Assembly (NCBI GenBank): GCA_011316305.1
Contig: SAUG01000046.1
Span: 310,001 to 374,000, forward strand
Direction of reading: 5' to 3'
From: Rusavskia elegans
Taxonomy: Eukaryota; Ascomycota; Lecanoromycetes; Teloschistales; Teloschistaceae
DNA length: 64,000 nt
Both the position numbers and the translations under genes were made by a program. The notes under the pieces are model-generated. The model saw only the letters and a list, made by a program, of their open reading frames with translations, did no database searches and was not told the DNA's origin. Within the stretch, counting starts at the first letter, position 1. Each line of letters begins with the position of its first letter. Below are positions 30,613 through 58,935 of the stretch, one piece after another.

Positions 30613-32548
30613 TCAGTGTCTACCAGCATGGGAGACCAATGATGATTCTTCGCGAAAGAAATCCTCGGAATCCACAAGAACAACTTTTGCGTGCCGATAC
30701 AGAGCCATGTTTAGCTCGTCTTGGGAGGACACAATGGATATACCCTCCCGAAACGTCCACCCTTGATAGACACATGCGAGACACACCATCGCATTCACAG
30801 CCTTGCAAACATTGGTGATAACTGGGTTGAATGTGTATCCGGAAACGTCGGCAGTCGTTTCGACCAATCGCTCCTCCGGCTCCACTGAGTATCCTCCTTC
30901 GTATGTGTTCAACGAAGCCAAGGTACCATTGGTTGCTACTAGATAAGGTGGACTGTTATCAAATTCTTCGGCATTTGGTTTTGGCTCACAAGTCTCAGTG
31001 AAGATTGGACCCGCAAGTACAAGGTCCATCTGACGGGGATTGAGTCGCTGGACTACCCGGCCTCGATGTCTGTATGTGACGAGGCATGTCTGCGAGTCGT
31101 AGTCCCAGCCAGGTTCAATATGGATGGTAAAATCGTCAATGGCTCGTCCTTGTAGTTGTTTGATGCTGACTTTCTCCAAGACTACATCCTGAAACATGAC
31201 AGCGTCCGATACACTGTCGTTCGGGGTACGCTTTGTCGGATTCCTCGCGTTACCAGGGTATACGACCCCATTAGTGCCACTTGGTATACACGATGGATCT
31301 ATATCTATCAGGCTGAATCTTCCGAAATTACCCGGTCGCGCGACAACAAGGCTAGAGTAAAGAACAGGAAGCTTTCCTAAGATCCCTATCGCACCATATT
31401 TCACGGTCTCAACCTGCCGTCTTTCGGCACCACCGAAGAGATAGGCTGCCAGCTTCAATATTTCGAAACGGTACAGCATGTAGACCCTGCCTTTTTGCTT
31501 GCGTTGGTGCAATCTTGTGCAAACAACCTCCCGGATTAGGTTCAAGCAGTGGATATCGCCCCAAGCCCAGGCGCCGAAAGCTTCTTGAGTAGTGAGCTGT
31601 GTAGTATCCAGTAAAGGCAGGAGGAGCTGATACCAATAGCCGAGAAAGAATGCTTGGAACCAATGCAAAGCGTCTCCATAATCGTACGCTTTATCAAGCC
31701 CGTAGGATCGGCTCTCCATTGACTCGTTGTTTAGAGATAAGGCAATCATCTGCAGGTTGTAGGTTTCTTGATCGGAACCGTTGAGCTCTCTGACGATGTC
31801 AAGAAGCGCATTCGATGCTGCGGGCGTAGGTACTGGGAACAGCCAGTCTGCAAGTCGATACACATCGCCGTCAAGGCGTGGTATTTCGGCTGTTGAAGTT
31901 GACTCGACGAACAGCATCAGATCCTGTTCCTCTTCGAGGAAAGGCGATCCTTTGACCCGTGGAGGGTCATCCTCCGAGCGGTATGGCCGAAGAGATAGGC
32001 CATCTCTTCTCACCGCAGCCATGCCGAGTTGGAAGTATCTGCGCATTCTGTTTCGATCCAGGCTCTGAGGGAACAATGAAGCTACCTCCTCCATGTGTGT
32101 GAGTGGGACACGCATTCCAGGACGAAATGTTCGCTGCGATTTGACAAGGGCGGTTGGTGTAACGGTGCTAGTCCAGTAAATGACGGTGTCTGATTCGTCA
32201 ATACGGCTCATGGTAGCGGTTTCAATAAGCTTGATCTTCATTCCTAGTTCCTCTAATACAACGGCCAAACTGAATATGTCGGTGGAAGCTGTGGAATCTG
32301 TGGAATAGGCCTTACTCTCATCCTGAATCAGCCATGTGAGAAATTGGATTACTGCGCTTGACTCAGCTTCTGGGATGTACCCATACTGGTGCTTTCTTTG
32401 ATGGCCAAGCTTATTCCATTGATCGCGTGCCTTGAGAGAGATATTCCGCACAACAGCTGCTGACTTCCATCCTTGAATATGTTCATTTGCTTCGCGCCGC
32501 AGGAATTCGGCACTCTCCCCGTGGTCCTCAAAAAGTGTTAGAAGTAGC
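30613..32548 (-). pseudogene. C-terminal part of a split gene of an uncharacterised fungal family
   Basis: The intact frame of 1931 nt (32543-30613) encodes the C-terminal 643 residues of a protein whose first 131 residues lie at 58542-58935. The outer LTR of the retrotransposon separates them; 32544-32548 is one copy of its target duplication. The fragment has no stop or frameshift and no RIP. Blocks such as EFLRREANEHIQGWKSAA, FRPGMRVPLTHMEEVASLFP, GYWYQLLLPLLDTTQL, EAFGAWAWGDI and YRFEILKLAAYLFGGAE are recognisable from a large family of fungal proteins about 750-800 residues long without assigned function; I do not know a biochemical role. The frame continues upstream into the LTR, where an ATG at 32565 would add seven LTR-encoded residues to the LTRAC of the exon and give a 650-residue product. 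Whether that is expressed is unknown. As an insertion allele the gene is presumably non-functional. Confidence 0.88.
32544..32548. repeat. 5-bp target site duplication, left copy
   Basis: GTAGC immediately before the TG end of the left outer LTR. It is identical to 58542-58546 after the CA end of the right LTR, as expected for integrase-mediated insertion. Confidence 0.93.
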
Positions 32549-32791
32549 TGAAGACCTGCGAACATGGCATTTATGGTCGATGCGGAGACGACTCCGGGAT
32601 ACGCGATGGAGAACGGACCTCTGAGGTCACGTGTACTTCCTATTATAGCTAGCGCTGCCTATTTAGGCCTAGCGCTTACTTATTACGCGTACTATTTAGC
32701 TATTTATCGATTTCCTTTTTTTTTACTTTTTAGAATATATAATATATATTTATTTTTTATATAAATTTTTATTTCTATATTCGAACTAATA
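32549..32791 (+). repeat. left outer LTR (243 bp) of the copia element
   Basis: Aligns without gaps to 58299-58541 at a fixed offset of 25,750. It begins TG and ends TA, where the right copy has CA, so the last C was mutated. The outer part (to about 32660) keeps normal composition; the inner part, from about 32700, reads T where the right copy has C and A where it has G. So this copy is RIP-mutated only on its inner side. With a plus-strand element this is the 5' LTR. It also supplies an ATG on the minus strand that opens into the split host gene. Confidence 0.92.
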
Positions 32792-33969
32792 GTTATAAAC
32801 TCGGTATTATATATTAAAGTATTATTATTATTATTTACATCAGCGAATCCCAAAATGGATTTTCAGATTAGACCGGCTAACAGCTATCTCAATCCAAATA
32901 ATCCAAAAATCTAAATAATCTAAAAATCCAAAAAGTGGATTTTCGATAGATTAGAACTCTAATAGTATCTATAGTACGAAAATAAACTTAGTAAATAGCC
33001 TAAAATAGAATCTATATATAAGCTAAAAATTAATCTATCTAATCTAAGTCGAAAATAAAGTTTAGCGGCCGCCGCTAAAAGCGAGAATAACGGAAGTCGA
33101 ATATCTATTTAATAAACCACGCTAGACCTAATCTAGTTAGATTTTAGTAAAGAAATCTAATATTTTCGATCGAGACGAAGCTAGTCTAGCGTTATATATA
33201 GGCGTATATAGGCCTACTAACTACTAATAAAGATTTAAACGAATTTAAAATCGAATCTCTAAATCTTTTTAGCCGTCTTAGCCGCGCAGCCACGCAGCTT
33301 CGGGTATACCCGAAATCGGCTAATAAGCCGCTTATAAGCCGGTTTTAGCCGTACCGGCTAAGAACCGGCTAAGACGGCTGAAACGGCTGAAACCGGCTTT
33401 AAACCGGTTTTGGAAAATATTAATATAATTACTAGTATTAAATACTTTAGCGTATAAAATTCTATTATAAAAATCTATTATACCGCTGCTATTTTTTACT
33501 ATTAAAAAAATTTACTAGAAATTATATAAAGTTTAATATATTTTAATAAATAGTAAAAATATTTATAATTAATTAGTTATTATATATAAACTATCGGAAG
33601 CTCGTAGCTATAATATAAAAATGAATTTTATCGTTTAAAAAGACCTTTTATCTAAAATATATATATATTTTTTATATACTATAAAAATTTAAAAAAATTA
33701 TAATATTCGTTAAATACGATATTAAATTTACTTTAATAAAAGATTGGAATTTATAATTTATAGCTATATAAAATAAAACGACCGGCTAGCGCGTTTAGAA
33801 ATTTATTAATCTATCTATTATTCTAAAATCTAAAAATCTTTTAAAATCTATTAAATTAATTTTATAATAAATATAAACCGGTACTATAAAAATAATAATA
33901 AAAATAAAATTTAAATTTAAAAAAATAAAGCTAGATTATATCGATAAAAAAAAAGACTATATATAAAAA
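32792..33969. other. copia 5' internal region, AT-rich, with GC hairpin array
   Basis: RIP-degraded sequence between the 5' LTR and the first SINE. At about 32835-32960 a less-mutated stretch repeats ATCCAAAAA/ATCTAAA motifs, and at 33268-33415 an unusual GC-rich run of short CCGGCTAA/CGGCTGAAA units can fold on itself. No open frame of 60 codons. It may include a further small inserted element, since gag normally lies close to the LTR. Confidence 0.4.
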
Positions 33970-34411
33970 GCCGGTTTGGATAACGTAATAGCAACGCTAC
34001 GTGACCTGGCGACCTAACGGATCCAACTCGGGCGCTTTTCGGAGTTAACGGGATTAAATCCGGCGGGTCGGAAGTTCGAATCCCTCGAAGGCCAACTCTA
34101 ATATTTGAGTTTTTTCTATCGACTAAGTCGATTTTTATACAGAGTTTTTATATAGAGAAATTATTTAGTAAATCGTCTCGATCTAGCCCGATCGATCGAA
34201 GTAAATTGAATTAATTAAAATTAAATAAATTACGGTTTCCTTTTAGGTTTTAGTTTAGATCTAGCTTCTTCGGAAATCTTTAATTCGAGTTTTCGGTAAA
34301 ATATTTAAATACCAAATAATTGCGTAATTTGATCGATTTAGCGCCTCTAGCGTTAAAATCGTGAAAGATTAAAATTAAAAATCCGAATGATTAATCGTAT
34401 ATATATATATA
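33970..34411 (+). mobile_element. tRNA-derived SINE, copy 1 (RIP-mutated)
   Basis: About 440 bp. The head corresponds to an RNA polymerase III promoter: the A-box equivalent is damaged by G-to-A changes, and the B box reads GTTCGAATCCC at about 34072. The body matches 54256-54698 in inverse orientation over its whole length. The 3' end is an (AT)n/A tract near 34400. The 13-14 bp around TATATAAAAAGCCG occurs on both sides, a likely target duplication. It sits in the 5' part of the copia element. Confidence 0.65.
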
Positions 34412-36445
34412 TATAAAAAGCCGATATATTCGCTAAAATAAATAATTTTATCTAGAAAATAGTAGTAAATAATATTTTTATTTTTATTAAATACAAAGAA
34501 TTATATCTATAGAATTTTTTTTATATATTTAAATTTAGATTCGTTTTAATATTTCCGCTAGATTAATAGAAATCGAATATTCGTATAAATTACTTTCGGC
34601 AAGACCTATTAAAAATTAAAACTTCGAAATATAATTCGATATATATATTTTAATATATATCTAAATTAAAAAAGTCGATATTATAGAAACTAAAAAATCT
34701 AAAAAAGTATATAGAAACTTTATTTTTACTATTATAACTCCAGCGCTAGTTTTTACTATAAATGATTTATTAAAATTCGATAACGAAATAGATTATAAAA
34801 TCGAATATTTTAAATTTATTAAAAGTTTCTATAATTATATTAAATTAAATAATAATAAATCTCCTATTACCAATTTAGTATTTACTATTATCGAAAGCGA
34901 TTTTAAATTAAAAGAAAATAGAAAACTATTATTCCGAAATAATAATAATAAACTTTCGAAATATATCTACGATTATAAATACTGGTTCGACGATTACTAT
35001 TATCTACGTTATGATTTTCACTTTAAATATCTAAAAGTATTAGCGAATTAGAAGCTAAAAGATAATATAATAAAAAAAATACGCGAAACTTTCGATAATA
35101 ATACTATAGAGAAAATAAAAGTTAAAAAGATTATCGATTATTCTATCTAGTATAAAGAATACCCTAGCGAAAAAAAAGAAAAATTTTAAAATAAAGAAAA
35201 GATATAGATAGAAATCTACGCTATTATAAGCGAAGACGTCGTTTTCGAATTCTAAATATTTCTATAGTATAATATATTCTATACGGTTTTTTAAAAAATT
35301 TTCGCTATCGATTTCTATCTATAAATATTATAGATATTCGATAACGGTTTAGTAATTAATATCTATAATAATTTAATAATTTACTGTTTTATTTAAAAGA
35401 AATTATATTTTAATAATATATATATCGTTTCCGGAAAAAATCGTATATTTATTATAATCTATAGTCGAATAATAATCGAAATTAATATTTCTATAGATAA
35501 GAAATTTATTATAATAATAAATATATACTATATTCCGGAATTTATAATTAATTTAATTTTTAAAAGCTATTTAGAAAATAAAAGCAATCTTTTTTATAAT
35601 AGAAAATATCGCTATATATAATAAAGAAATTAAATAGTCTTTAACTATATAAAAATCGGCGGATATTATTTATTCGAAAATAATCGAAATAGTAAAGGCG
35701 ATATAGCGTCTATAATATTTATAACTATATCTATTAACTCCGGTACTATATATAAATAGTTCTAGATTCTAGTTTACGCTGCTAATAATTCTATTTAATA
35801 CCTTTCGTAATTAGCTAAAAGAGTAAAGATTACTAATTCAACGAAAGTACTTTCTATAAATAAATACGAGATTTATACAGTTTTTAAAATCTATTAAATT
35901 ATTTCGCGTTTATTATATAAAAGAAAGGATTCCGATGAATTTTATATTATATTCGATTTTATTTCTTTTATAATCGTTTTAAATAAATATAAATATATTA
36001 TATATATTATATATACTAAAACGGACTTTTATTTTATATTTACTTATCGCTATAAATTAAAAGCTATTCGAACAATTTATAAAATAATTAAAATAATCGA
36101 ACTTCGCTATAATAGTAAAGTAGTATTTTTAAAATCGGATAGAAAAAAAATCTTTCCAGAAAAAAAATCTAATAACTTTCTATTCCAGCTAGATATTTTC
36201 TAGAAATCTTTATCGCTATCTATATTTAAATAAAACGGTTATTCGAAACGCTTGGACTATATTTTAATTATTAAAGTATAAATAATATATAATATAGCTA
36301 GTCTTTTCTATTATTTTTAGCTATAGATTTATTATATAACTGGAATAATTATAAATCGTATACTAAAAAATAAACTCGTCTAGAAAATTCTATTCGAAGT
36401 CGTTATTAGATTTTAATTTTATTTAAATTATTTACGTATATATAG
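34412..36445 (+). mobile_element. copia body, left part: gag, protease, integrase remnants
   Basis: The plus strand carries gag-like sequence (about 34700-35200, aromatic and Lys-rich, no clear motif), the protease site at about 35331, and integrase to 36445 where the coding run breaks off within the segment that in copia reads L-R-(V/I)-Y-G-C. The same run resumes at 55475. Nearly every Trp, Gln and Arg (CGA) codon context has become a stop, as RIP predicts. A short direct repeat TATAG (36441-36445 and 55470-55474) flanks the break and may be the target duplication of the inner insertion. Confidence 0.75.
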
Positions 36446-37341
36446 TCTGATTTCTCGCCGGAATAGATTGGAAAAATCTATTAAAATTTGGTATAGTAGA
36501 CTTTTTTGGATTGATATAGTATAGATTTTGAATATTCGGAATCTATACCGATATTTGTATTAAAAAAGATAAAAAAATGGATTAACTCTATTTATCTAGT
36601 AATAGTAGCGATATATTCGTATTTACGTTATTTTATATACTATTCTATATACTATCGTATACTATTATTATAATTATCTATTTATTCGTAATTAAAATTT
36701 ATTAAAAAACTAGCTTTTAGATATATTATTACCGATGTAGTAGATATATTATAGAAAGCGACTACTAGATATATTAACTTTTAATAATTTCGCTATTATC
36801 TCGCTTTCTATTATTTCTTTTTTCTAAAATATCCGCGATATCTTATTCTAGAAAGCTAGTACAACGATTTCTAGACGATAATATATTAGATTCGCTAGTA
36901 TTTTCTATATTCGTAGATCGCGGAATAGTTTTTTTTATTTTAGATTGATATAAACGAATAGCGGATTTAGCTTTCGGTTTAATAAACGGGCCGGCTATTT
37001 TTTTTAAAATAATCTTTAGTACTAGAAAAATAATACGAATTAAATACGCTATAAAATCTATTAAAAAATATATTTCGCGATTCTATAATATAGATAGAGA
37101 AAATAGATATAATTATATCTAAAAGTATTATATATTAGTAAATTATTAATAGCGTAGTATACTACGTAGTATAATAGAAAATATTTACGCTTTAGCGTAA
37201 ATAGTTAGACGATATATCTTATATCCTTTTATATAATAGTAACTCGTTTAATATAAATATACGTTAAATTAACCGTTAAGTAATCTATTAGTTTTATATA
37301 TATATTATATTATTAACTATAGAATTTTTACATTTAAACTA

Positions 37342-37570
37342 GACTATTGTAGTGGTTAGGGTTTTGAATCATTCGAACGGCTTAAAGGATCATAGAATGT
37401 ACATCTGGATTGTACAATTATATACGAATTCGGATACTAACTGATCCGGTCGTTAATCGCAAGAGCGGGTATAGGAGCGGGTATAGGTCTAGCGTGGAAA
37501 TACTTGTATACATAAATGTCTCACTCCTCTATAGTTATAGGAAATCAGCTTGGAATTCTACACTATTAAA
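37342..37570. mobile_element. RIP-poor island, possible young short element
   Basis: About 230 bp with ordinary base composition inside fully mutated DNA: CA and TG dinucleotides are common here (GTAGTGGTTAGGGTTTTG at the left, CATAAATGTCTCACTCC near the right). It holds an adjacent duplication of AGCGGGTATAGG. The ends carry a weak inverted match (TATTGTAG / TAGTGTAG). It may be a late insertion, or a sequence too short or too low in copy number for RIP. The class is not determined. Confidence 0.4.
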
Positions 37571-40500
37571 ATAGTTTCGGACGTTTTTCTAATTACTTCG
37601 ACTATAAAAATCTAGAAGCGTATAGAATTTTATCTAATTTAAACCGATTCTATTATAATTATTTATATTGAATATATAAAGGAGATTTTAGATATAAATA
37701 AATCTATATTCTATTATAATCTTTTAATATCGCGGAACGCAATCGCTAAATTTTATAAAAATTTAGCCTACGTAAAATAATTCGCAGGATAAAGCGTAGA
37801 AATATATATAATTAAACTTTATTCTATAAATATATAGACCGTTTATAGTAGTTCTTTTATTTAGAAAACGTTTCTAAACCTTTATATATATATTAAACTT
37901 CGGCGTATTAATAGATTTAAAGACCGCTTTAATAGCCGCTTTAGTAGTTTTTTTCGGAACTTTTACTAGCGCCTTTTACGGTATTTTACTACTAGTAGTA
38001 GATTTTTAAAATAATATTAGTTTTATAAAAATATTATAAAATATATAATATACGAAGTTTCTTTAATATAGATTTAGCTATAGTAGTTAGAATTTAATAA
38101 TATAAAAATAAAATATTTCTATTATAGAATTTTTAGCTACTCGAGTTTTTTTTATTCGATATCTACTAGTTATAACTATTTACTATAATCAATAAATTCA
38201 ATTCTACTTTTATTTATTTTATTATCTATAGAATAATTGTATTTTAACTAATTTCCTTTCGATTTTCGAAATTTTTATACGTTTAATTTAAGTACGTTTT
38301 ATTTAACTATAGAGTCTATTATTACGATAATCTATAATTAGATTATTTTACGATTAATTTTATATAGATAATAGTATAAACGTATAGAAAAGTAATATAT
38401 ATACGAATATCTAAATACTAGACGAAATAGACCGTTTAAAACTAAATTTAAAATAGTAAAATTTTACCGTTATAATATATCTTTAGCTAATTATTACTAC
38501 GAATTTAAATTTTTTCCGTTTATAATTATTATATAACTATCGTACCAACCGTATATATATAAAGCCGAAAAGAACTGAATAGTAATATAATAAATAAAAT
38601 ATCGTATAGAATAACTTTTTATAACTATAAACTAATAGTTGGTTTAATAAATTAATAATAGATACGGACGTACTATAATTGAATCGGAAGTAATTTAACC
38701 GTCTATTTAAACTATAAAATAAACGTAAAAGAAACGAAAAATATTCTATAAATCTATAAATAATTACTTTTAAAACGCGGACGGTTTAGTATAGTCTCTA
38801 TAAACTAGAACTATTAAAAGTTAAAAATTCTAATCGTATAGTATTTAATCGCGTATTAAAAATTATAAAATCGTTTTCTAGATATATAGTTACTACTAAA
38901 GCCGAATAAAATAATATAGAAATATAGACCAAAGTAAACGTTTAGACGAAATAGTAAATATATTAAAATTTTTACTATAATATATTATATTAACTAGCTA
39001 GTAGAATTTTCTAAAAAAAATATATAATAGTAATCGCTACTAGATATTAAATATTTATAAACTCCGGAAACTTTATATATATCGTTAAAAAAAATAAAAA
39101 AGACGTTTAAAAAAATTTAGACGAAGACGAAACTATAAAAAATAAAGTTATACTTTTATTTTCCGAAGATACGGAAGTTAAATATCGGTCTAGACTCTAT
39201 ATATAAAACTATAGTAGCTATAAATAATAAAGAAAATTTCGGAATTAAAAATATATTAGATAATAAACTCGACTACTATATAGAAAAAAATAAATTAAAA
39301 CGCGAATATTTATATACGTTGCGTATATTTAATCTAATATAAAACGTTTAGAAAAAATAAATCTTTAATATAAAAATTGGATTTTAATATACTAATTTCT
39401 ATAGATATATATAGAATAATATATATAATTAAATATTATACGAATATAATAACTTTTATAGATTCTAGTTTTTCTATATATAGATATATTTTCATAATTA
39501 AATATCTATAGTAAAAAATCAATTAATTAACTTTTATAGAATAGAATATATCTACTAGAATCCTAGCTGCTATATATAAATTTTAGCCGGTAAGATATAA
39601 TAATATAAAGGAACCTTCTAACCTACCGCCGCTATATAATTAGAAAAATTAAAAGCCGCGAAGAGAATTAGATTAAATTTTTTAATTCTATTAAATAGTA
39701 GGATATTTATCTCGATTTTAATTCTTTTCTCGACGAATAGATACTAGAAAAGGATATTTAGAAGACGGCCTACGTCTACTATCTAGTAAAAAGAATATTT
39801 AGTAATTACGTATCTATAGATTTTCGTTATTTAATTATTTCGAACGATAGATTTTATATAGCTCGAAATAATATAGAATAAATAGTATAATAATCCGGAT
39901 TATTATAACGAAAAGAAATAATCTAATAGATAATTTTAATTAAAAATATATCTTTCGATAAATATAGATAGGTCTTTAGCTAAATCTATATTCGCTACTA
40001 GTAATTCTATAATTATTAAAATCGAAACGTATATATAATAATAAATTAATATATATAATATTAAAATTAAAACTTTTCTAAAAATAATAACTATCGATAT
40101 CTATTTTCTTCTTTAATCTAGCTAAATCTTTATCGATCTACTACCAAATATTTTAATAATAGAATACTACGCTCGCTTTCGAATTTAAAAGCTAGACTTT
40201 ATTATCTAAGAAGTTAAAATTAGAGAAATTAGATAATAGAATTAATAGAACGGCTAAATTTACTAATTAGTTTATATTATTTTTATTATTATTATTAATA
40301 TAATCGCGATCTAGTTTATCTTTTAGTATTTTATTATAAATTTCTATTTTTTTTTCTTTTTAATTTTATCTATTTCGATTTCTTACTAGAGGTTAGCGTA
40401 GAGAAATTAAAATTTTTTTTTATTTTTTCTAAAATAGTATTAGCGAAAGATTATCTTCGCTGTAATTATTAATAGATAATATAATTTATAATCGCCGTAG

Positions 40501-43500
40501 ATTCTATTTATAATAAAAAATCATATTTTATTTATAATTCCGGATAAAATAGTAGTAAAGATATTATACGCGATCCGTATAAAAATAGAAAATTAAGGTT
40601 CTAGTTCGCGCTATTAGTCGAAGACGGATTTATTTTTTCTAGTTAAATTATAGAGATAGAAAGAAACTAATAAAAGATAAATAAATAATATATAGAGTAA
40701 ATATCCGGATTTTATTTATTTACTTTATATCAACTATAAATTTATTATCGTCATTATTTAAATATTATAGGCTATTTTTAGTTAGATAGTTTTTAAACGT
40801 TTCGGTTCTTTAGAAATTTTATTAGCTAGATATTTTTTCTAATTTTAATACTATTCCGAAAAACCGATTATAATAGATATAGTACGTTTCCTCTAATATA
40901 TTCTAATAAATATCTTTCTAAAATTTACTATTATTAGTATTTTCGATTCAAGATATATTATTAAATAGTAAAAAGTAAAACGATAGATATAATAAAACCG
41001 TTTATCTATAAAATAATTTTAAACTATACTAAATTTTACTATAGTAGTAAAAAAGTTTAGTAAAAGCCGCGTCTAAAATTTCGAAAAGTTTTTTTTTCTA
41101 AAAGATCCGTTTTTTCCGAAACCGTATCTTAGTATTTTTAATATAATTAAATAATTTATTATAGATCTAAAAGACGAAATAAATTATAGGCCTTTTTATA
41201 ATATTTAACGTCTTCGTAAAAATATAAAAAAGTTTAAAAGTTTAGATTAAATATCGAATTTAGTTTTACTTTTTATTATTAAACTTTAACCAATAGGTAT
41301 TCTAGTATTCTAAAATTTTATAAATTTTATTATAAAAAATAAATATACGGATTAATATATAATACGTCGAATTCTACTATATATTAATATTTTAAAAAAG
41401 ATTTAAGACTTTCTAATAATAAAATTTTTTCTATTCGATATTAGATCGTATATTAATTATTAGCGAAATTTAAACTTCGGCTATTTTTATTAATTATAAC
41501 TCGCGGACTTTATCTTTATATTAGCTATTCGCGTTAATCTAGATATTTATCTTCCTAGTCTAAAAAAAATAAAAAATAGGTTTAAACCGGATATATCGAA
41601 GTATTTTAATAATATAAAAAAAATAGAATTTAATATAAAAAACTCCGAAAATAGATTATATAGCTAATATAAATAATATAGAACTTTATATAAAATAATT
41701 CCAGATATAATTTAAAAAGAAAATAAAAATCTTGTAGTATATCGTATATTACGTAGAATTTTATATAAAATGAATTCGGATACTATATATATAGAATTTA
41801 AATAGAATAATAAAATGAATATAGAAAGTTTATTTTAGCTAAAATTATCGGTAGTCTATAATCCGCGCTAATAACGATACTCGGATTATAATTTTTATTT
41901 TAATTTTTTTAGAATAATTTATTAATAGTTTTAAATTTAATATAGCCGAATAGTATTTATAGTACTAGTTAAAGTATATATATAAAATATAGAATATAGA
42001 TAATCGGATTTTTAATACTATTAATATCGGAAACGTAATCGATCCGAATTAACTATATAATAAAATAGTTATTATTAAATATATTCTTCTAGTCTATTTT
42101 TTTCTACTTATTATTTTTAATATAATTAATATATTCGGTATATTATTTAAAGTATTCAATCGCGTTAACGAATATAGTTTTATTATTACCGGTATTATTA
42201 GTTGTAATAGTAAAAATTCGATTAATTAATAAATATTTTCTAAAAATTTCTAAAAATATTTTAGATAATATAATATTTATATAGTTTTCTAATATAAAAT
42301 TAAATCCGATAAAAATCTAATACTAAATCTAATTTTTATCGATAAAGAAATCGATTATTAATATATAGGACTAGCGATTATTTACCGATTAACTATTTAG
42401 AATAATTAAATCTTTAGTTTCATTAGATAGAAATTCTAATAATCTTTATTCGATATTTATAACGTTATTTATAATTTATTTCAGAATCTAAATAGTATAA
42501 TATACGAAAGATATCGATATATTTAATAATACTAAAATTTTAATCTATTATAATTATCTATCGTATAAAAGTTTTCGGAAAATCTTTCTATAAATATATT
42601 TTCGCTAATAGCTTTTAATAGATAAATTATAAAAATATTAGATATAATATCCAACGTAATATTATATATATATATATATATATCTATTTAAATACGATTT
42701 CAATTAATACTAGACTTTTTAATAAAGATTTATTTTTATATTTCTTCGTTCCGATAAAGTTACCTATTATTATTAATCTATACCCGGCGGAAAAATAACC
42801 GATAATATACCCGCAGTATTTATAGTAAACTTTTAGTTTACTATTCGAAATCCGGGTAACTTTATAGAAATATATCTAAACGGTTGATTTTTTAAAACTA
42901 CCGAAATATATATTAAATCTTTTAGAATATTTTTCTAGTTATACGATATTTATAATAGTCTATTCGGTTTTATTTTACTATACTAGAAACTCGCTCCGGC
43001 GGAAGATTTCGTATAAATAATATTTATAGTTTTTATCGATAATTTAATAACTATCGACTAATCTAATAATATTACTAATATTTAACTAGTTAAAATCTAA
43101 TTTCGCTAATTATTAAAACGATTTAGCCTCGCTATTATTATTAATAATAGATAATATTTCGAAGATAATAGTCGTATTATATCTAATTACTAATATAAAG
43201 AAAAGTTTTAAAAAATAAATCTTTCCCTATTTATCTTTTTTATTATTTAGAGTACTATTTAGCCTTCTAATTCCGCTATAATAAAAACTAATATCGAATA
43301 ATAAAAAACTATTAAATCGATAGTTTTATTAAAGAAACTAGTAATTTTAGCTTTTTACTAACGTCTTTTTAGTATTCTATATTTTTTTTCTCTCGTCCTA
43401 TTTTTTAATTTCGTCGAAATTAAAGCTATATTAGATTATTATATAAAGATTCGGAAATACTATATAGAAAGATATTAAAATATTAAATTAATTTTTTTAT

Positions 43501-44499
43501 ATTTCTATTTTAATACTAGAAGTACTAGCTTTTAGAATAATATCTCTTTCTACCGACTACTATCTATTTTTTATTCTTTACTATTATCTTTTCGTTTTTT
43601 TATACCGGCGTTAAATTTCTTCCTATTTTTACTTTAATTTCTTTCTAGCTATTAAATTAATACCGACAGTCTATAAATAATAGTTATAGCGGATTTAAAA
43701 TAGAAAAGTATTTATTTTCGAATATAAAACTGCTATTTTAAAATAGTAGTTACCGTATTATAAAAGTTTATTTTTCGATTTTATAAACGATTAAATATAT
43801 AGAATAATATATTAGAATATATATTTTTTAATATAAAATTTAATATTAAACTATTAGATATAAATCTATAAAATAAAATATTAATTATTTAAAATAATCT
43901 ATATTATCTTGCAAGTAATATTATATAGTTAAATATAAAATTTTAAATATACTAAAATTTCGGAATAGAAAGCCGCCGATACTAGTACTATATCGATTAA
44001 TCTATTAGTTTTACTAATATTAATTCTAGAAATTTTTAGGTGCTTTTTTTAACCTATAAAAATATTCTATTGTTAATTTATAATACGGAAAATAGATATC
44101 GATAGTATTATTAATTTTTAATTATTAATTATAATCGACGAGATTACTAATATAATAAATTTTAAAATTTATATTTCCGATTTGAATAAAAAAATAAAAG
44201 GATCTTTTTTTTTCTAATAATACTACTATTTAAACCGACGGAATAACGCTATAATAAATATACGCGGATTTAAATATCGAATAATTCGATATAAATCTTG
44301 AATAGATTATAGTAGAATATAGTATCCGAAAAAATATCTAATACTATATTCTTCGGATATTATAAATTTACCGCGAAAAAAACTAGATTTTTGAAATCTT
44401 TTCTAATAAAGCGAAAGAATATCGGCGATAAAATTCCGTATTAATTTAAAGTCGGGAAAACCGTAAATAGATTTCGAAAATATAAAAGTAAATTTTAAT

Positions 44500-44504
44500 A
44501 GTAT
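44500..44504. repeat. gypsy target site duplication, left copy
   Basis: AGTAT directly before the left gypsy LTR; the partner at 50652-50656 reads AATAT, a single G-to-A difference consistent with RIP. Confidence 0.7.
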
Positions 44505-44995
44505 TGTTATAAAACTATCTGGAAGTTTCTAGTATTTTTAAAAGTTGGTTGGATTTATTGGTATATCTGTAAACGGAAATATAACGGGTAATTTTTTAAA
44601 TTTAATTAAAAACAAATCAGTTAATTACTAGAACAGTATATAGCGATAACTAATAAATTAAATATAAGTTATAAAAGCGTCGAGATCGGAATCTATATAG
44701 ATAAGTAAAATCCTCTACTATTTAGATTATTTATTAACTAAAATTACTAAAATAGTTCTATTTTAAGATATTTACTCGCTAAAACTACTAAAATTAAAGT
44801 ACTTATAGTATTTACTTACTATAACTACTAAAATTAAAGTATTTATAGTATTTATTTACTAAAATTGCTAAAATATTCTTTAATACTAATATATAGCTAT
44901 TCTATATATTTTTACCTGCCGAGACGTAATAGAAAATCTAGCGCTATACTAAATACTACCGCGTTTTCTAAAGTACGCCGCCTGTATTTATAATA
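44505..44995 (-). repeat. gypsy LTR, left (3') copy, 491 bp
   Basis: Begins TGTTATAAAACTATCT and ends TTTATAATA (CA changed to TA). It aligns along its whole length to 50121-50651. It contains a 40-bp minisatellite (ACTAAAACTACTAAAATTAAAGT-type units) in three copies where the right LTR has four, which accounts exactly for the 40-bp length difference. Confidence 0.87.
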
Positions 44996-47900: not shown

Positions 47901-50120
47901 TCGCTATTTCGGTATAGATTAGATATTTTCTATATAAAAATATTATTTAAAACTAAGTATTTTTTTCTCTAGTCTATTACTAGATTATAATCTTTTAAAT
48001 AAAGAATTCTAAATACGATTTCGGAGCTAACTATTTAAATAATATTAAATTAAAGTTTTATCTAGTACTAGTTAATTATTATTTAAAGCGATATTATTTT
48101 TTTTATAATCTTTTTATCTCTATTTAGTATTTTATTTCTATCGATAATTATTAAATTATATAGGTCTTTTTTTTTAGCTCGAAGGAACCTTTTTCTTTTA
48201 ATTAAATCTTTTAATATAAAATTTTCGGTTACGCCTAAATTAATAAATATTTTAACCTTCTATAATCTATTATTAGTTTCGATAATTATTTTAATCTCGA
48301 ATATATATATATATAGCTAGCTAAATTTAATTACTTCTTTTAAACTATAAAGTTATACGTTCGTAGTATATCTATTACTATAAGATTTTAACTTTTTTTA
48401 AATTATTATTTATATTCTTATATTTTTTACTTTTATTATCTGCTTATAAAATATATCTATAGAGTTTCTAATTAAAGATTTTATTTCTTTTTTATATATT
48501 TTTTCTAATATTTATATCTGCTATATATATAATATCGAAAATAGTTATAAATATTATAACTTCCGATTTAAATAGATATTATAGGAGCGCGTCGATATAG
48601 CTTTAATAAATACTATCCGGTTCTTTTTTTTTCTAATTTATAAATCCCGTAGCTATTATTATAGCAGGCGGTCTAACTAAATAGTATATATTAATCTTCT
48701 ATTATTATATTCTTTTATTATATTATCGGTATAGAAATAACTTTATTTTTAAAAATATTACTTCCGAGTTTTTTTTTTAATATATCGACGATATTATTGA
48801 CTTTTTAGTTATATTGATTATTCTATAGATATTCGTCGCTAATATATATTTTATAAATATTTTTATATCTTTTATAGATTACTATAAATTTTTCCTTTAC
48901 CAGTTTTTTATTATAAAAAGTTTAAAGGTATATTAATTTAATATTCTCTATTATTATAATTATCTATTTAAAGGCAGTTTTCTTTCTAGTAGATTTTATT
49001 AATATTTATAGTAAAATATTATTTATTAAAGCTTTCTATAGTATTTTATCGTTTTCTATAATTATAAATTCTTTATCTAAATCAATTTTCTAGAGTTTAA
49101 AACTACTATCGTCGTCTTTTAAAATAATTTTTTACTAATTTTTAGATTTCTTTAGTATAGCGTTAAACTGTCGTCGTTATACTTTATTTAATCGATATTG
49201 TTTTATAAAATAGCCCGGATTATTATAGTTATAGTATATTTTAGAATTTTTATTTCTTTTACTATCTCTAAAATTCTTTTTTTTACGTCGCTATTATATA
49301 GAATCTAATTCTATTAATATAGGTCTATAGTAGCTATTTCCGAACTATTTTTTACTAGAGTATTATCTTCTATAGAGCCGTCCTAAATAATATCCCGTAT
49401 TATTTCGTAGTCTACTATCGTAGTATTTCACTATATCCTATTTATATAATTTATTATTAAAGTCGATAGATATTTTAATTAGATTATCTAGTATATTATA
49501 TATTCGACGATTATATATAAATTTATCTTTTATTCGTTTTTTAAATCTTTATCTAAATATTATATATAGGGTATCTTTATTCTATTTCGTTAGTAGTATT
49601 TATTCTTTAAATTATACGGCGTAGTTAGATACTATATTCTTCTATTAAAAATATTAAATAAAATATTTAATAGTTTAGATTTCGTTTAAAATTCTAAAGA
49701 ATTTATAAATAGCTTTTTTAAACTTTATAAATAATATAAAAATTTATTTATTATTTTTATTATCGTCTATATATTAACGAAGGAAAGATTTTATCTAGTA
49801 CTAAACTCGTCCTCGAAAGTAAAATATAGCGAAAAGAATCTTTTTTTTTTCGGGTATAGAATAGAATACAAAGTATATATCTAATTATATAAACTAATCT
49901 TCGAGTTTATTACGATCTCTATAGTATTTATCGGACTTATTAATTTTAATATTATAAAAGCGTTAGTTAGTAGTAGGAATACTAACTTCTTTATTATTAC
50001 TATTATCTTTTATCTAGATTTCTTTCCTTTTAGATTCGGACTTTTTCGCTATAAAGCTGGAGTTATTTAGAGTAGAGATTTAATATTAATCTACGACAGA
50101 TATTCTAAAGATATTTAAAA

Positions 50121-50651
50121 TATTATAAAACTATCTAGAAATTTCTAGTATTTTTAAAAGTTAGTTAGATTTATTAGTATATCTATAAACGGAGGTATAA
50201 CGGGTAATTACTTAAATTTAATTAAAAATAAATCAGTTAATTGCTAGAGCAGTATATAGCGATAACTAACAAATTAAATATAAATTATAAAAGCGTCGAG
50301 TTCGAAATCTATATAAATAAATAAGATCTTCTACTACTTAGATTATTTATTAACTAAAATAACTAAAATAGCTTTATTTCAGGATATTTACTCGTTAAAA
50401 CTACTAAGATTAAAGTATTCATAATATTTATTAACTAAAACTACTAAAATTAAAATAATAATAATATTTATTTACTAAAACTACTAAAATTAAAGTATTT
50501 ATAATATTTATTTACCAAAATCGCTAAAATACTTTTTAGTACTAATATCTAGCTATTTTATATATCTCTGTCTACCGAAGCGTAATAGAAAATCTAGCGC
50601 TATACTAAATACTATCGCGTTTTCTAAAACACGCCGCCTGTGTTTATAACA
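50121..50651 (-). repeat. gypsy LTR, right (5') copy, 531 bp
   Basis: Begins TATTATAAAACTATCT (TG changed to TA) and ends TTTATAACA with an intact CA. Contains four copies of the 40-bp internal repeat. As the 5' LTR of a minus-strand element it would have held the promoter. Confidence 0.87.
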
Positions 50652-51870
50652 AATATTCTATCTAATATTATCTAAATATACTCGTATTTCTATATATTTT
50701 ATAGAAATTAAATACTAAATTACTATTATTCTAGATATATTATTCTACGAAATCCGGAATCTATAAAAGATAATCGAATTAATTTTTTTAAAAAAACCGT
50801 TTTAACGATTTATTAAAGAAATTATAATAGTAGAATAGAAGAGCGATTTAAAAATCTAATTAATAGTATTTAAAATATTTTAAAAAACGGCCGAAATTTA
50901 TTTATTAACCGAATTTAAAAATATAGCTTTACTATACGATTTCCGTTTTAATAGATTTTAAATTAACTAAAGGTAATTATTTAACTATATACTTTCTATA
51001 TAAAGAAAGTAATATTTCTATCGAAGAATATATAGTTAATTAGAACTATTAAAAGATATCGCGTATTCTAAAAAACTAAAAATCTATAGATATATATTTA
51101 GTATACGAGATATTATATAAAATAATTTCGATTTTAGTAAATTTCGTATATTATTAAAAGTATATAACTTTTTAAATAACTAGATCTAAATATCTGACTT
51201 TTATTTTTATTAATATAGCTATTTATTATAGTTATAAAAGTATTTTAAAAGTATTTCTAATATAAAATTTATATAATTCCGAAACGTTTTTTTATAATAC
51301 CGACTAACTTTAATAATTACGTTCTATTCTATTTCGATTATACTAATTTTCTTTTTAGTAGAAAGACGAGCCGTATCGGTAAAAATATAAATATTAAAGT
51401 ATCGTTTTATAAAATAATAGACGTAGGCCGCTCTTTAAATATCTTTATCTAGTATCTATTCGTCGAAGAAGAAATTAAAATCGAAATAAATATTCTATTA
51501 ATATACCGGGTCAGATAGTTCGATCTAACTATTATTTCGATCTTTAATATCTTTTATTATTATATATCGATAGAAAACCAGGTTATTCTAAATAGTTAAA
51601 TCTATATTATTAAATATATTATATAAAAATAAAAATACGTCGAGAAAAGAATAAATCTAAACTGTAATTAGTATATATAATATTTTATACAACAATTACT
51701 AAAAGTTAACTTTTTTCTTTAATCGAATATTAATAACTAAATATTTCGATATATTAATATAGCTATTTACGGTAACTCTATAGATAAATTATTTTAATAT
51801 CGTTATTATCTTTCGATTAGTAATCGAAGATATATGAAGTCTTACTATAATAGTATATATTAATATAATT

Positions 51871-52532
51871 AGACTGGCCGTTTTATTAAATTTCGAATTC
51901 GAATTCGTATTCCGGGTTCGAATTTCTAACCGTATTAGGAAGGAGATTAACTTTAACTAGTAATTTAGACGCAATAGCTACGTTTATCGCGAAATCGAAT
52001 CGCTACTTTGGTTCGAAGTAGCCAGTCTAAATATAATATAATTTATTTTTAAAATAATAGATAATTTAGATTTAAATAGATTATATAGTTTCAAAGATCT
52101 ATAGCTATCGATAAAAAATTTTTATAGTTTCGCTTTCTATTTTTAAAGTCTATAGTTACTCGGCGGAAACTTCTAGAATTATAAATTTCTTACTATTAAT
52201 TATAGCGACTAAAGTTTCGAAAATAGAATTTATAAAACATTAATTCTATAATTAAATATAATAGTACTCTTTACTACGATTTGCTTTTTTATTATCGATA
52301 TTAATTTAATTCGGATTATTTTTTATAAAATTTAAAATCTAGTTTTATATATTAAAAAATATTCCGCTTTTAATTAGATTGGCTACTTCGAACCAAAGTA
52401 GCGACTCGACTTCGCGATAAACGTAGCTATTACGTCTAAATTATTAGTTAAAGTTAGTTTCCTTTCTAATACGATTAGAAACTCGAACCCGAAATACGAA
52501 TTCGAAATCGAAATTCGATAAAACGGCCAGCC
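51871..52532. mobile_element. MITE-like element with about 155-bp terminal inverted repeats
   Basis: The first about 155 bp (GACTGGCCGTTTTATTAAATTT onward, to 52025) is repeated as its reverse complement at 52376-52532, ending GGCCAGCC. Differences between the arms are mainly transitions. The roughly 350-bp core is AT-rich and has no coding. Size and structure fit a non-autonomous DNA element or foldback transposon. The right tip GGCTGGCCG and the left tip GACTGGCCG differ by one G-to-A change. The target duplication is unclear. Confidence 0.65.
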
Positions 52533-54247
52533 TGCTTTTAGTAGTATAGATAGAAATATAGATACCTTTAATATATCTATATATCGGGTTAAATTTCTCG
52601 ATATATTATAATATAAAAGTATAATTTATCTTTCCGTAATTATTTACTATCTACGTCGTTTCTTTATATTTTTTCTTTAGTTTTCGAATATATTTTTATA
52701 GATACGCTATTTTTTTAAACTAATAATAATATAGTTTTAAATTTTATAATCTATTCCTTTAATTTAATTTAACTTTAACTTATATTTAGTATAGCTATCT
52801 ATACGGTTTCGCGAGGCGATTATATAAAGGTTAGTAAAGTAATCGTTTTTTCTTTTACGTTTACTTTAAAGACTAATCAGACGGCTAAATCTACTACGAT
52901 TCGATTATTTAATATTTTAAAACTAGTTAATATCTCGCGTTTTATTCTATATAATAAAAGCTTTTTACTATTTTTAAATATTATAACTATAGCTCGAATA
53001 TCTATAGTAGTACGAGACGTATTTAATACGTCTATTATTTTAAATAATTATTAATTATAAAAAATAATCTATAATTATAGATTTATAAAAATAATAATTT
53101 TCGTAGTAGAAACAATTAATAAACTAACGATATTAGATTAAACGCCTAATTTTACTATCGCTAGCATCGGTAATATATAGACATTATTTATCTAAATTTT
53201 AATTAAAAGTTTTTTAATATAATTAATTTATAATCTATTTTATAATAGATAGAAACTATCTATTTTTGAATTCTATTACTATAGTACGCGCTTTCTAAAA
53301 TAAAAAAGGAAAGATTTTAATATCTATAAAAATAACGAATATAGAACGTAGAAATCTACTATTAGAAATGAGAAAAGCTAATAAAATAACTATTAAAATT
53401 CCGAAAGAAAATACGCGTAAAAATATCCAGATATATTTTTCGAATAAAAAATTAACTAAAAATAATCCGTATATTCGGCGTCTAAAAGCTAGTAGTAAAT
53501 ATTTCTAGACTTTATTTTATTCTATAAATTATTTTATAAAAGTTAAATTTTTATTAATTTTAGCGTTCGTATTTCGCGATATAAAAAAATTATAAAAAAA
53601 TATAAATCTATTAATATCGTATATTTTCTTTTTATATTTAGTCCGAGAAATTATAGAAGATTTGAAACTCTAATCTAATAGTTTATAATTCCAAAAATTA
53701 ATAGTAGAAATACTAAAAAAAATATTCGAAACTATTTTAATTATATAGTTTAAAGATATATATTAGTTCTAATAATTACTATAATATTTTCCAATATATT
53801 TTAGTTTTAAATCTTATATACATCTATATAAAACGCGTTACTATTATAGAAAAAAACGCTAAATATTTCGTTTTATTTTATATTCTAAACTATATAATAG
53901 CTGGATTTTTCTATATATTTTTCTATATCTATTAATTTTTAAATATATATATTATTTATTTTCCTATAAATTTATATATTTTTAGAAAATAGAAATTATA
54001 TTATCCGGTAAATCTATATTATCTTTACCCGAAAAAGATAAAATTCTATTAAAAATCTAAAAAGTTATTTATAGACTTTTAATTTTTTAAAAATAAAAAA
54101 GCGAAATAATTAACGGCGGAAAAAGAACGCTTTAATATCTATAGGACGATAGAAAGAGTAAATAAAAAAGCGCGTTTAAATCGCGTTTAAAAGAATATAA
54201 ATATATTATATACGGCTTCTCGTATATAATATAAATAGGATTAATAA

Positions 54248-54255
54248 TTTAATTC
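54248..54255. repeat. SINE target site duplication, left copy
   Basis: TTTAATTC next to the poly(T) tract; the same eight bases occur at 54699-54706 beyond the head of the SINE. Confidence 0.7.
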
Positions 54256-54698
54256 TTTTTTTTTTTTTTTTTTTTTTTATTAATCATTCGGATTTTTTTG
54301 ATTTTAGTCTTTTACGAATTTTAACGCTAGAAGCGCTAATTCGATCAGATTATACAATTATTTAGTATTCAAATATTTTTATCGAAAACTCGTATTAAAA
54401 ATTTTCGAAAGAATTAGATTTAGACTAAAATCTAGAGGGAAACCGTAATCTATTTAACTTTAATTAATTTAATTTCCTTCGATCGATCGAGCTAGACCGA
54501 GACGATCTACTATCCAGTTTTTCTATATTTTAAAACTCTATAAAAATCGACTAGAGTCGATAGAAAAAACTTAAATATTAGATTAGCCTTCGAAGGATTC
54601 GAATCCCCGACCTATCGGATTAATTCCGTTAATTCCGAAGAACGCTGGATCCGCCGGACCTCCAGGTCACGCAATATTGCCACTGCGCCACCCAGATC
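54256..54698 (-). mobile_element. tRNA-derived SINE, copy 2 (better preserved)
   Basis: 443 bp on the minus strand. The head starts GATCTGGGTGGCGCAGTGGC: TGGCGCAGTGG is a good pol III A box (TRGYNNARNNG) and GGATTCGAATCC about 75 nt on is a B box (GGTTCGANTCC type). The body lacks coding. The 3' end is a run of over 20 A (T on the plus strand at 54256-54278). TTTAATTC duplications flank it, as expected for LINE-mediated insertion. The source tRNA cannot be named by eye. Compared with copy 1 this head is nearly free of RIP changes. Confidence 0.75.
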
Positions 54699-55474
54699 TT
54701 TAATTCTTTTTTAAATCTATTATTATATATACTAATCGCTTTATATAATTAACAGTTTTAAATCTTTAATATAAAAAAGTATTATAAAACCGAATAGATA
54801 CGAAATAGAAAGTTAATAGAAATATTCGAAAATAACTAATTCCGAAATATACTAGTAAACTAGTATCCGGTATATATATATAATAATTATAATAACTTTT
54901 TCTATAGCGAATCTAACCGAATATATATATAGTTAGTCGCGGGTAATTTAAATCTACTAGATATAAAAATAGAAAAAGACGAAATTAATAGAGCTAATAC
55001 CGAAAAAAATCTAAAAGCTAATAGAAAACCAGCTAGTGAAGAAAATTATATAAAAGCTAGTAGAGATATAAAAATAGATATAAAAAGAAATCCGGCTATT
55101 AAAAACGCTAGTATAGAAACGGATAAAGCTATATAATAGCAGGACTATATATAAAATAAATTACGCGAGTTTTATTCTATACGTTCTATTATTAAAAGCG
55201 ATTTAACTAGTTCTATTTATATTTTTATTATAAAATAGTATAAATGTCGGTTAATTATTCGAAAGTTATATTAATTATTTAAAAGTTATCTTTAATTATA
55301 TATCGTAAAAACTTCCCTTTATATATATCTAGGTTTTCTAGATTAATTCTATTATTTTCTAATCTAAAAATATATATCACTTTTCTTTATATTATTATCT
55401 ACTAAATTTTAATAGTATAGATTTTAATTTTCAAAATCCAAATCAATCTATATCATTCTAGCTATATAATATAG

Positions 55475-58298
55475 CTATAAAGTCTACGCGTTTAATAAAT
55501 ATATTATATATACGGAAAAGTTTTTTCTAAAAGTTTATATTAGATTTCTAATAGAATATAATAGTTCTAATATCTATAATATCTGGATATCTAGCTAGCG
55601 GAAGGTTATACGAAGCCGTAATATTATATTTAACGAAGATTCGTTCTATTTTCTAGAAAAGATTAATATAATTTAATTTTAAATAAAGTTATTTTTTTAT
55701 AATATATTTAATAATCTCTATATAGACCCGTCTATATACAACGAGCTTTCTAAATTTAACGATAATAACGAAAATAAAAATATTATTATTTAAAAATCTG
55801 TAGAAGCGTTAAATAATATTAAAAAAAAGAAAAAAAAATTTTATTTCTATTTTCTCTAAATTTTTTAATTTTGAAAAATAATAATAACTATTACCTAGAC
55901 GATATATTCTAATATAACGATATCTAGAATATTTTCGAATCAATTTTTTTACTATAGAAAAAATCGAGGCCGCGTAAAAAAATTTAGAAAAAAAATATTA
56001 TCGTTAATAATATATCTTTAATCTTATATTCGAAAGAAATCGGAAAAAATTTAAACGTATATAATATAGCTAATATTAATAGATAATATTCTATAGATAT
56101 TTTATATAGCTTTTATAATTTATTATATAGCTCGAACGCTATATAAAGATAATTTCCCGCTAGATCTACTATTATATAAGCGAATTTTTATTAATATATA
56201 CTATTATCGCGAGTAGTTTCTATCGAAATCTAAATACTGAAAAAATATATTTAAATATCTATTAAAAAAAAGCTTTATAAAAACTATATAAATCGAAATT
56301 AAAACGTTTTAAAATAAAGAAATCTAGAAAAAAGTAGCCGATAATAAAGTTTCTAAAAATAATAGTATTACTATTTCTATTATCTAGGTTTTTAAATATA
56401 AATTCGATAACTAAAAATATCTATTTAAATTTAAAACTTGTTTATATACTAGAAGAAATCTTTAAAATATTAAAGTAAATATATATATTATTATATTAGC
56501 TATAAATAATTTTCGAGCTTTTATAGCTATTATTATATACTTTAACTATAAAACTCGGCAGTATAATATCGTTAACGTATTCGCTAACAGCGATATTAAT
56601 AAATCCATTTATATTAAATTTCTATAGAGTTAAAAAGAATCGAAAATAGTTCTACTACTATTTCTATAAACGCTATATAGATTAAAGTAATTTTTAACGT
56701 TTTGGTTTCGCTATTTATTATTTATATTAAATAATTTATAATTTTAAACGATTTCCGGTACCGAATATCTCTTTATCTATAAATATATATTTCTATTCTT
56801 TTTCGTTAATAATATTACTATTATTTTCGAAGCTAGGAATATTAAATATATAGAGGAATTTTAGATTAAACTATTTAAAAAAAATATATATATAAAATTT
56901 TTAAATAAAATTATATAGTTTCTAGATATTCGAATAATATACGAAAAGAAATTATATAAACTATTTCTATATTAGAATTCCTTTATCGATAAAATTACGA
57001 AAAAGTATTATATTAATTTTCCTATAAAAAGTTCTAGAATTTCGTTAGCGAATACTAAAATTTTTACGAAAAATATTAAATAAATTATATTATAGTAAAA
57101 TTTCGTATACTAATAATTTATCGGTTTAATATAATTCGCGGCTATTATAAACCGCGTTAATATCGGTTTTATTTTTTTTTTAATTTTTAAAATTTTTTAT
57201 AAATCTTTCCGAATATTATTATATAGCTACTGTTCGAGTTCTATAATATCTAAAATATTTAAAATTTCTTTTAATTATTTATAATATCTCTATACCAGAT
57301 TTAAATAAAATATTTATCGATTTATCGGATATATTTTTTATAGATAATTCTAATATTCGCTGTAGCTTTTAAAATTATTACTTTAAACTATTTAATAGTA
57401 CTATTGATTAGAAAACTTCTAAATAAAAGATAGTTATAATAAATTTAACGGAAACCGAATTATTCGGCGCTATAATAATAGGAAAAAAAATTATATAATA
57501 AAATAAATTTTTTAAAAAGATCGCTATAGATTTAAACTATAAATTTTTTATCGAAATCGATAATATATAGATTATATAAATCTTCTAGAACGGTAATTTA
57601 TAGTTTATATTTAAATTTCGTTATATAGATATTTATTATTATTAGTTTCGCTAGAAAATTTATAATAGAAACGTTTTAATTAAATATATAGCTTCCGTAG
57701 CTATTTTAGTCGATAGTTTTATAAAAACCCTTCCAATATAATATTATAAAGAGTTTATTTAACTTCTAGGATTTCAGAATATAGAATTAAACGAGATTTT
57801 CTATAATAATACTATTACTACCGCTATTAATATTTTAGATCTATCTAGATTTATAGATCCGAATAAATCTAATTAAAAATTCTTTTATATCGCTTTTAAA
57901 GTTATATATTACTTTAATATCTAGTAAATATAATTAAATAGAATAGTATAGTAATTAATATAGATATAACAGAAATTTTATAATAGTAGAACTATTATAA
58001 TAATATTTACTATTACTATAGTTCTAATATTATAGATTTATATTTATTAAACCTCGATTCGAATCCGAATTCTATTAATTTCTTTTTACTCTTTTTATAT
58101 ATTAAATTCTAGTTATTTTATATTAATATTTAGTTTATAATTTAGTCTAAAATATAAATTCTTTAATTTCGACTTTTATTATTTATAATACGGTTATTTC
58201 TATACTAATTTAAAAGGAGGATATATACGGTAATACTATTAATAAAAATTATATAGAAGTAAAGTCTATCGACGCTTACTATCGATTTTAAAAAGATA
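55475..58298 (+). mobile_element. copia body, right part: linker, reverse transcriptase, RNase H remnants
   Basis: The plus-strand coding run resumes with the equivalent of Y-K-x-Y-A-x-N-K-(Y/H)-I, in register with the left part. A linker with WIxSxRKVIRSRNIIFNED-like wording follows at about 55580, then reverse transcriptase (catalytic pair NN at about 56791-56840, ...IEEF-x-IKLFKK... after it) and RNase H up to about 58000. A purine tract GGAGG at about 58214, or AAAAAGA at 58291, would be the polypurine tract. All frames are broken by RIP stops. Confidence 0.75.
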
Positions 58299-58541
58299 TA
58301 AAAACCTGCGAATATAGTATTTATAGTCGATACGGAAACGATTCCGGAATATACGATAGAAAACGGACTTTTAAAGTAATATAAACTTTTTATTATAGCT
58401 AACGTTACCTATTTAGGCCTAGCGTTTACTTATTACGCGTATTATTTAGCTATTTATAGATTTCCTCTTCTCCTGCTTCCCAGAATATACAATACACACT
58501 TATTTTTCATGCAAATTCTCACTCCTGCACTGGAGCTGACA
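58299..58541 (+). repeat. right outer LTR (243 bp) of the copia element
   Basis: Gap-free match to 32549-32791. Here the inner side (58299 to about 58465) is RIP-mutated and the outer side (about 58470-58541) has normal composition, the mirror image of the left copy. It begins TA (TG in the left copy) and ends CA, followed by GTAGC. It is the 3' LTR of the plus-strand element. Confidence 0.92.
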
Positions 58542-58546
58542 GTAGC
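58542..58546. repeat. 5-bp target site duplication, right copy
   Basis: GTAGC directly after the CA end of the right LTR, identical to 32544-32548. Confidence 0.93.
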
Positions 58547-58935
58547 CTAGTCAGCACCTTCTCCTGGTCACTCGGTTGCATCGCGGCATCAAGTGCCGCT
58601 GTTAGCAGGATCATCAGCCAACTAAATCTGTCCATCTGTTGCACCAGTGGATTATTCCCTGTATATTTGTTGCGGAACATGGTGCGCTGTCCATTCTGAT
58701 ATAACATTATCTTCTGGGACCAGCGCTTTTGCAAGTCTGCTGTCTCGAACAGACCCTTGCGTGTGAACACGGTGTCGATATCGACATTCATCCAGTCGAG
58801 GAGCACTCGATCCTTGAATTGTGCCATGATCCAAGTTCCTACTTTGCGGCCGGCACCGGCCATCGTGGCAATGTCTCCAGCCGAGAACCCCCATGTAGCG
58901 AGCGCGACCGATCCGGATTGGAAACTCAGTGCCAT
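58542..58935 (-). pseudogene. N-terminal part of the split gene
   Basis: From the ATG at 58935 (MALSFQSGSVALATWG) the frame runs 131 codons to the GTAGC duplication, then enters the LTR and stops within eight codons (58519). Blocks GDIATMAGAGRKVGTWIMAQ, KDRVLLDWMNVDIDTVF and MDRFSWLMILLTAALDAAMQ are the usual start of the same uncharacterised fungal family whose remainder is at 30613-32543. Joining 58935-58542 to 32543-30613 gives 2325 nt, 775 codons, with the junction reading VLTRLL then LTLFEDH and no stop. The exon itself is not RIP-mutated. An upstream in-frame extension (to 58983) begins at a non-ATG codon and was not used. Confidence 0.88.

Follow-up and report, generated by a model that had tools for sequence, protein, structure and literature searches.

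How can a gene be cut in two by about 26 kb of heavily mutated repeats and keep both halves of its coding sequence open and normal in composition? The question is raised by a locus in Rusavskia elegans (assembly GCA_011316305.1, contig SAUG01000046.1, positions 310,001 to 374,000), a stretch of 64,000 nucleotides that was analyzed as a whole and is called the window here. The answer developed below, which we consider very probably right as a whole, combines insertion of a copia-type element, nested growth, and RIP with spared edges, and it leaves a split gene. Retrotransposons that interrupt genes are well known, as are nests degraded by RIP, and the event is ordinary in kind; its resolution is unusually sharp. 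The useful part is the measurement, in which LTR pairs act as a natural same-sequence control for RIP.

The rest of the window is an ordinary gene neighborhood at positions 1887-27060 and 60990-61868, where two of 10 open frames are without a Pfam match. Neighboring matches are to TBC, AAA/FtsH_ext, an acetyl-CoA transporter, Rua1_C, PH/GRAM/VASt, GH5, SF1-HH, and PIR repeats. Tandem repeats with units of 39 bp (3.3 copies; 61375-61502) and 12-75 bp (22045-22366) lie in or beside open frames.

A Host Gene in Two Pieces

The two parts of the host gene are on the minus strand. The N-terminal part (58543-58935) has 131 codons and is 94% identical to residues 1-132 of a 771-aa protein from Xanthoria sp. 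2 (P0003), the closest among the matches listed; that protein is an unreviewed gene prediction from a MAG. Such closeness by itself makes Xanthoria, or a near relative within the Teloschistaceae, the most likely source of the window. The C-terminal part (30613-32548, with one TSD copy included) is 91.6% identical to residues 131-771 of the same protein. Between them is a block of 25,993 bp (32549-58541), with GTAGC on its left (32544-32548) and right (58542-58546) as read on the plus strand. The two flanks joined through one GTAGC copy give 2,325 nt, or 775 codons including the stop, which is terminal and the only one in the joined frame; the block length, the codon count, and the absence of an internal stop were all rechecked by script. 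The frame reads PSDQEKVLTRLLLTLFEDHGESAEF at the junction, and the host coding sequence is a single exon that encodes a protein of ~774 aa. The claim of an earlier note that a GTAGC-flanked LTR block splits one minus-strand gene is exact to the base.

A protein search with the C-terminal part, in which the best 7,997 candidates by words in common were scored, matched at least 20 homologous proteins. Named sources include the lichen-forming Xanthoria sp. 2, Polycauliona, Pyrenodesmia, and Circinaria and, among other ascomycetes, Zopfia, Massariosphaeria, Periconia, Delphinella, and Alternaria. Both halves are present in one protein in 15 of the 20 homologues listed, and their junction has neither extra nor missing residues; the two query pieces overlap by two residues, and contiguity was judged apart from that overlap. 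The other five (368, 385, 372, 635, and 514 aa) are shorter and do not match the N-terminal part. The earlier note had read the halves as one gene, and among these 20 proteins they are not found as separate genes, nor does any junction depart from the predicted one. On these alignments the N- and C-terminal parts are pieces of one predicted protein, and the view that relatives carry the empty site at the protein level is supported. No second copy of the gene was found in the 44.2-Mb assembly, where the Xanthoria protein matches just the two pieces. An annotation made without this context would call the halves unrelated hypothetical proteins.

The nature of the protein is less apparent. Its one Pfam match, to Big_12, is below the cutoff, and PDB sequence searches found no match, whether with the C-terminal part or with a profile built from 18 homologues. 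For the intact Xanthoria protein, AlphaFold2 gave a model with a mean pLDDT of 63 and a pTM of 0.55, which finds no Foldseek match at E <= 0.001. In this low-confidence model of the relative, the break site would map to a helix at residues 121-136.

A Copia-Type Element and Its Nested Insertions

The block has the direct terminal repeats, TG...CA outer ends, and 5-bp TSD of an LTR insertion, as do 12 other pairs of the family with an exact TSD. Its 5' LTR (32549-32791) and 3' LTR (58299-58541), both on the plus strand and 243 bp long, share 186 identical positions and differ by 53 transitions and 4 transversions. The TG...CA ends claimed previously are present at the two outermost ends of the block, but the inward LTR ends are TA after RIP. 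Chance is not a sensible source of the LTR and TSD pattern, in view of 5,910 bp of collinearity with an uninterrupted copy elsewhere in the genome and of the family at large: 13 of 17 assigned LTR pairs have identical 5-bp flanks, and the other four are one base off.

That uninterrupted copy (C67, locus L076), 5,910 bp long at 24-35% GC, is the reference for the outer element. The element (32549-58541, plus strand) is present as four collinear segments, 32549-32837, 33418-33973, 34408-36445, and 55463-58541, which match reference positions 1-288, 280-832, 817-2855, and 2843-5910. On its plus strand the reference has RVT_2 (PF07727; E 1.2e-19), preceded by a below-cutoff SH3_retrovirus match, with no integrase core match in the scan. 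Because RVT_2 is on the plus strand and no domain match is found on the minus strand, the outer element is classed, from its predicted coding content, as copia-type and antisense to the host gene.

Three insertions interrupt this element. The first (32838-33417; ~580 bp) is unclassified and has no strand assigned. The second (33974-34407; ~434 bp, plus strand) is tentatively a tRNA-derived SINE. It contains a motif that, by eye, we take to be B-box-like, and its flanks, also read by eye, are ATATAAAAAGCCG; ARAGORN and Rfam found no match over the window, this insertion included. An inverted copy with 80% identity lies at 54279-54694 on the minus strand. The third insertion (36446-55462; ~19 kb, no strand assigned) is composite and includes a 6.1-kb, putatively gypsy-type LTR element on the minus strand (44505-50651), with LTRs at 44505-44995 and 50121-50651 and flanks that read AGTAT/AATAT by eye. 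RT_RNaseH is found at about 46431-46772 on the minus strand; RT_RNaseH and RT_RNaseH_2 are above cutoff, with no RVT_1 or rve match in the scan. This RNase H match is the only one in a six-frame scan of the third insertion, and the rest of it (36446-44504 and 50652-55462) is without a Pfam match. Each of the three insertions matches a family for which the genome has hundreds of initial candidates (295 for the first, 551 for the second, and, taking the inner LTR for the third, 549, with the best 40 scored in each case). The two short inserts have 36% and 34% GC, and the long ones 19-22%. The short inserts may be younger, or else they may be too short for efficient RIP.

On this evidence, a 5,910-bp copia-type LTR retrotransposon integrated antisense in the single-exon host gene, duplicating GTAGC, and three further integrations into it produced the block. 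The earlier description of a 26-kb retrotransposon block is borne out in its size and LTR boundaries but not as a single element, given that 5,910 bp of it is the copia-type element and the remainder came with three nested insertions.

RIP Fades Toward the Host-Facing Edges

The block carries the marks of RIP, a defense of the host fungus, with C-to-T and G-to-A transitions in repeats and loss of CpA and TpG. The ratio (CpA+TpG)/(ApC+GpT) is 0.12-0.46 in block segments versus 1.24-1.53 in the host halves. The two LTRs place the border between these states. Compared with its partner, the 5' LTR is free of RIP changes over its outer ~143 bp and has them over its inner ~75 bp; in the 3' LTR, the inner ~143 bp has RIP changes and the outer ~75 bp does not. 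Directional changes over the first 81 bp number 18 in the inward-facing right copy versus 0 in the left, and over the last 81 bp, 25 in the inward-facing left copy versus 0 in the right.

The same holds across the family. The LTR copies came from the best 40 of 61 and the best 40 of 63 candidates; 14 of 60 loci were dropped as duplicates, and 46 copies from 48 places were used (C73 and C187:176086 were left out). Sides could be assigned from internal sequence in 36 of the 46; the 10 unassigned copies include the left LTR in the window, two solo LTRs, and a truncated copy. In 35 of these 36 copies, mutation is lighter at the host-facing end than at the inward one; the exception is the right LTR at C139, which has an AT-rich outer flank. 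Sides had earlier been set by likeness to the window LTRs, a partly circular procedure (42 of 43 with the pattern), and those labels agreed with the internal-sequence sides in 36 of 36. Among 17 facing LTR pairs, 566 directional changes are in inward-facing stretches versus 27 in outward-facing ones, with inward exceeding outward in all 17. Without the two pairs matched partly on flank agreement (C21 and C120/C181), the counts are 491 versus 24, and a further pair (C91), omitted as its flanks differ, has 17 versus 2.

The fraction of changed sites, taken inward in 24-bp steps, starts at 0.06-0.07 by the edge and has reached 0.39-0.66 some 150 bp in. Outward from the edge, flank GC in 50-bp steps is 0.47-0.52 with no dip (18 left and 18 right copies whose flanks are host-like), and mutation of the outer end correlates weakly with flank GC (Spearman -0.31, p 0.045). 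As a pattern of the family, RIP dies away over roughly the last 100-150 bp before the element edge, and the clean exons are not peculiar to the split-gene locus: containment is genome-wide for the copia-type family. The host halves kept their normal composition beside a 26-kb mutated block because RIP weakened over the last 100-150 bp of the repeat toward the host-facing edges. The earlier note had offered recent disruption or contained mutation as reasons for the clean exons; containment is upheld genome-wide, and recency is treated with the age of the block below.

Substrate sites do vary along the LTR, from 7 to 15 columns per 27-bp bin, and the clean ends could in principle reflect a sequence with few RIP sites and not position. 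This is very unlikely, given that a stretch clean on the outward side is mutated in copies where it points into the element: the changed fraction over the first 54 bp is 0.125 in left copies versus 0.498 in right copies, and over the last 54 bp it is 0.204 in right copies versus 0.821 in left copies. The two solo LTRs are clean over their whole length and are no test of the edge rule, as recombination of two clean outer parts gives the same result. Position in the element is the preferred explanation. RIP took the repeats to ~20% GC and faded over the last ~100-150 bp at the host-facing edges, probably as homologous pairing was lost near the edge of the shared tract; we infer that the triggering homology ends at the element edge and that mutation is weak near that end. 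Searches of openly licensed papers listed no account of RIP-spared repeat ends. The LTR-pair edge test is applicable to many RIP genomes.

Other Insertion Sites of the Family

Two uninterrupted copies (C67:88036-93945 and C145:362175-368077) have long compatible frames in both flanks. Three of the 17 pairs have a compatible frame that stays open on both sides for at least 100 codons (the window, with 502/196 within the fetched flank; C145-, with 432/137; and C67, with 147/489), and because of these frames the family has probably split other genes too. At C21:781056-869711 (L068, L025), two LTRs of the family, one left and one right, lie 88.7 kb apart with the same outer 5 bp, TGTTG; they may bound a single insertion site that has expanded to 88 kb, of which the two ends alone were read. 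A left LTR at C120:23535-23777 (L027) and a right LTR at C181:6313-6555 (L048) have a common TSD, GAAAT, which suggests that the two contigs are neighbors with one element spanning the join. Block length correlates with LTR transversions over 16 pairs (Spearman 0.65, p 0.006; 0.72 without C21), where the values for C184 and C42 (15 and 14 transversions; C42 length 10,140) include truncated LTRs and are inflated.

Age of the Insertion and Fate of the Halves

The inner LTR element has 7 LTR transversions in 487 ungapped columns. Because the block has 4 and four uninterrupted family copies (C67, C143, C159, and C145-) have 0, the block insertion is older than those copies and is not very fresh; "recent," as once proposed, applies in a relative sense only. 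Three or four of the block's 4 transversion states are rare among the 46 copies. Neither host half has a stop, and over 764 sites, with Polycauliona as the outgroup, private amino-acid changes number 19 in the window lineage versus 18 in the Xanthoria protein (5 versus 2 in the N-terminal part and 14 versus 16 in the C-terminal part, differences that are not significant). The absence of stops and of an excess of changes is suggestive, not proof, of continued constraint. Neutral-decay simulation puts the probability of such intact halves at <0.001 to 0.17, depending on assumption; its clock is set by 4 (or a pooled 11) transversions with assumed ts/tv ratios, and the result is not leaned on. 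This leaves an inaccurate clock, fast growth of the block, or continued use of the C-terminal part. Halves no more decayed than the intact relative would be easier to square with a very recent insertion, or with use that continues, than with a loss of long standing.

For this locus to yield full-length protein now, the RNA would have to lose the 26 kb, an unlikely event, and host-gene function was presumably lost. Shortened products may be possible, judging from the open frames: the N-terminal frame enters the LTR by 7 codons and stops at 58519-58521, and the C-terminal frame extends 17 bp into the LTR to an in-frame ATG (32565), for a frame of 650 aa.

There is about an even chance that, by the standards of gene decay, the insertion happened very recently and that the halves are dead and not yet degraded. 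The 774 codons without a stop or frameshift, at rates equal to those of the intact relative, are what this reading predicts, but it must also accommodate three later insertions, one of them the 6.1-kb element with its own LTR transversions, and the uninterrupted family copies with none. An error in assembly would remove the puzzle by placing unrelated sequence between the halves, and AT-rich repeats are hard to assemble; the perfect TSD, the complete element ends, and the four collinear element segments make such a join extremely unlikely.

Continued use of the C-terminal part is possible, not likely. A shortened C-terminal protein made from the LTR ATG and kept under selection, with or without the N-terminal fragment, would account for the open frame starting in the LTR, the lack of stops, the near-equal counts of changes, and the low neutral probabilities. 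These probabilities come from a clock with very few transversions, an out-of-frame ATG (seen by eye) lies 5 bases ahead of the in-frame one, and the copia element's own promoter is directed the other way; we regard selection on the halves as unlikely. A stronger form, that the split gene is alive, with the C-terminal 643 aa starting from the antisense-LTR ATG in the RIP-spared stretch and one gene turned into two protected, expressible parts, is quite unlikely. If it were true, edge sparing by RIP would let a retrotransposon insertion make two expressible parts of one gene.

Comparison with Known Systems

The block element resembles Ty1/copia-type LTR retrotransposons in its RVT_2 domain, short TG...CA LTRs, and 5-bp TSD. 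It differs in that no intact copy is present among the loci fetched, and the uninterrupted C67 copy is itself at 24-35% GC. In Leptosphaeria maculans, RIP leaks into flanking single-copy genes. The two cases are alike in having RIP beside genes, but the direction is opposite here, and flank GC does not fall.

The Cladonia rangiformis report (PMC12542154) describes RIP-mutated, gene-free TE islands with genes practically unaffected. Nested low-GC TEs with sharp borders to genes are common to both; in R. elegans a same-sequence control places the border inside the LTR, and the island lies within a coding sequence. In Neurospora crassa, according to a RIP study (PMC4858203), a distal portion escaped RIP in a single synthetic construct, which is not the setting seen here. 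In this genome, by comparison, the shared tract is largely spared over its final ~100-150 bp.
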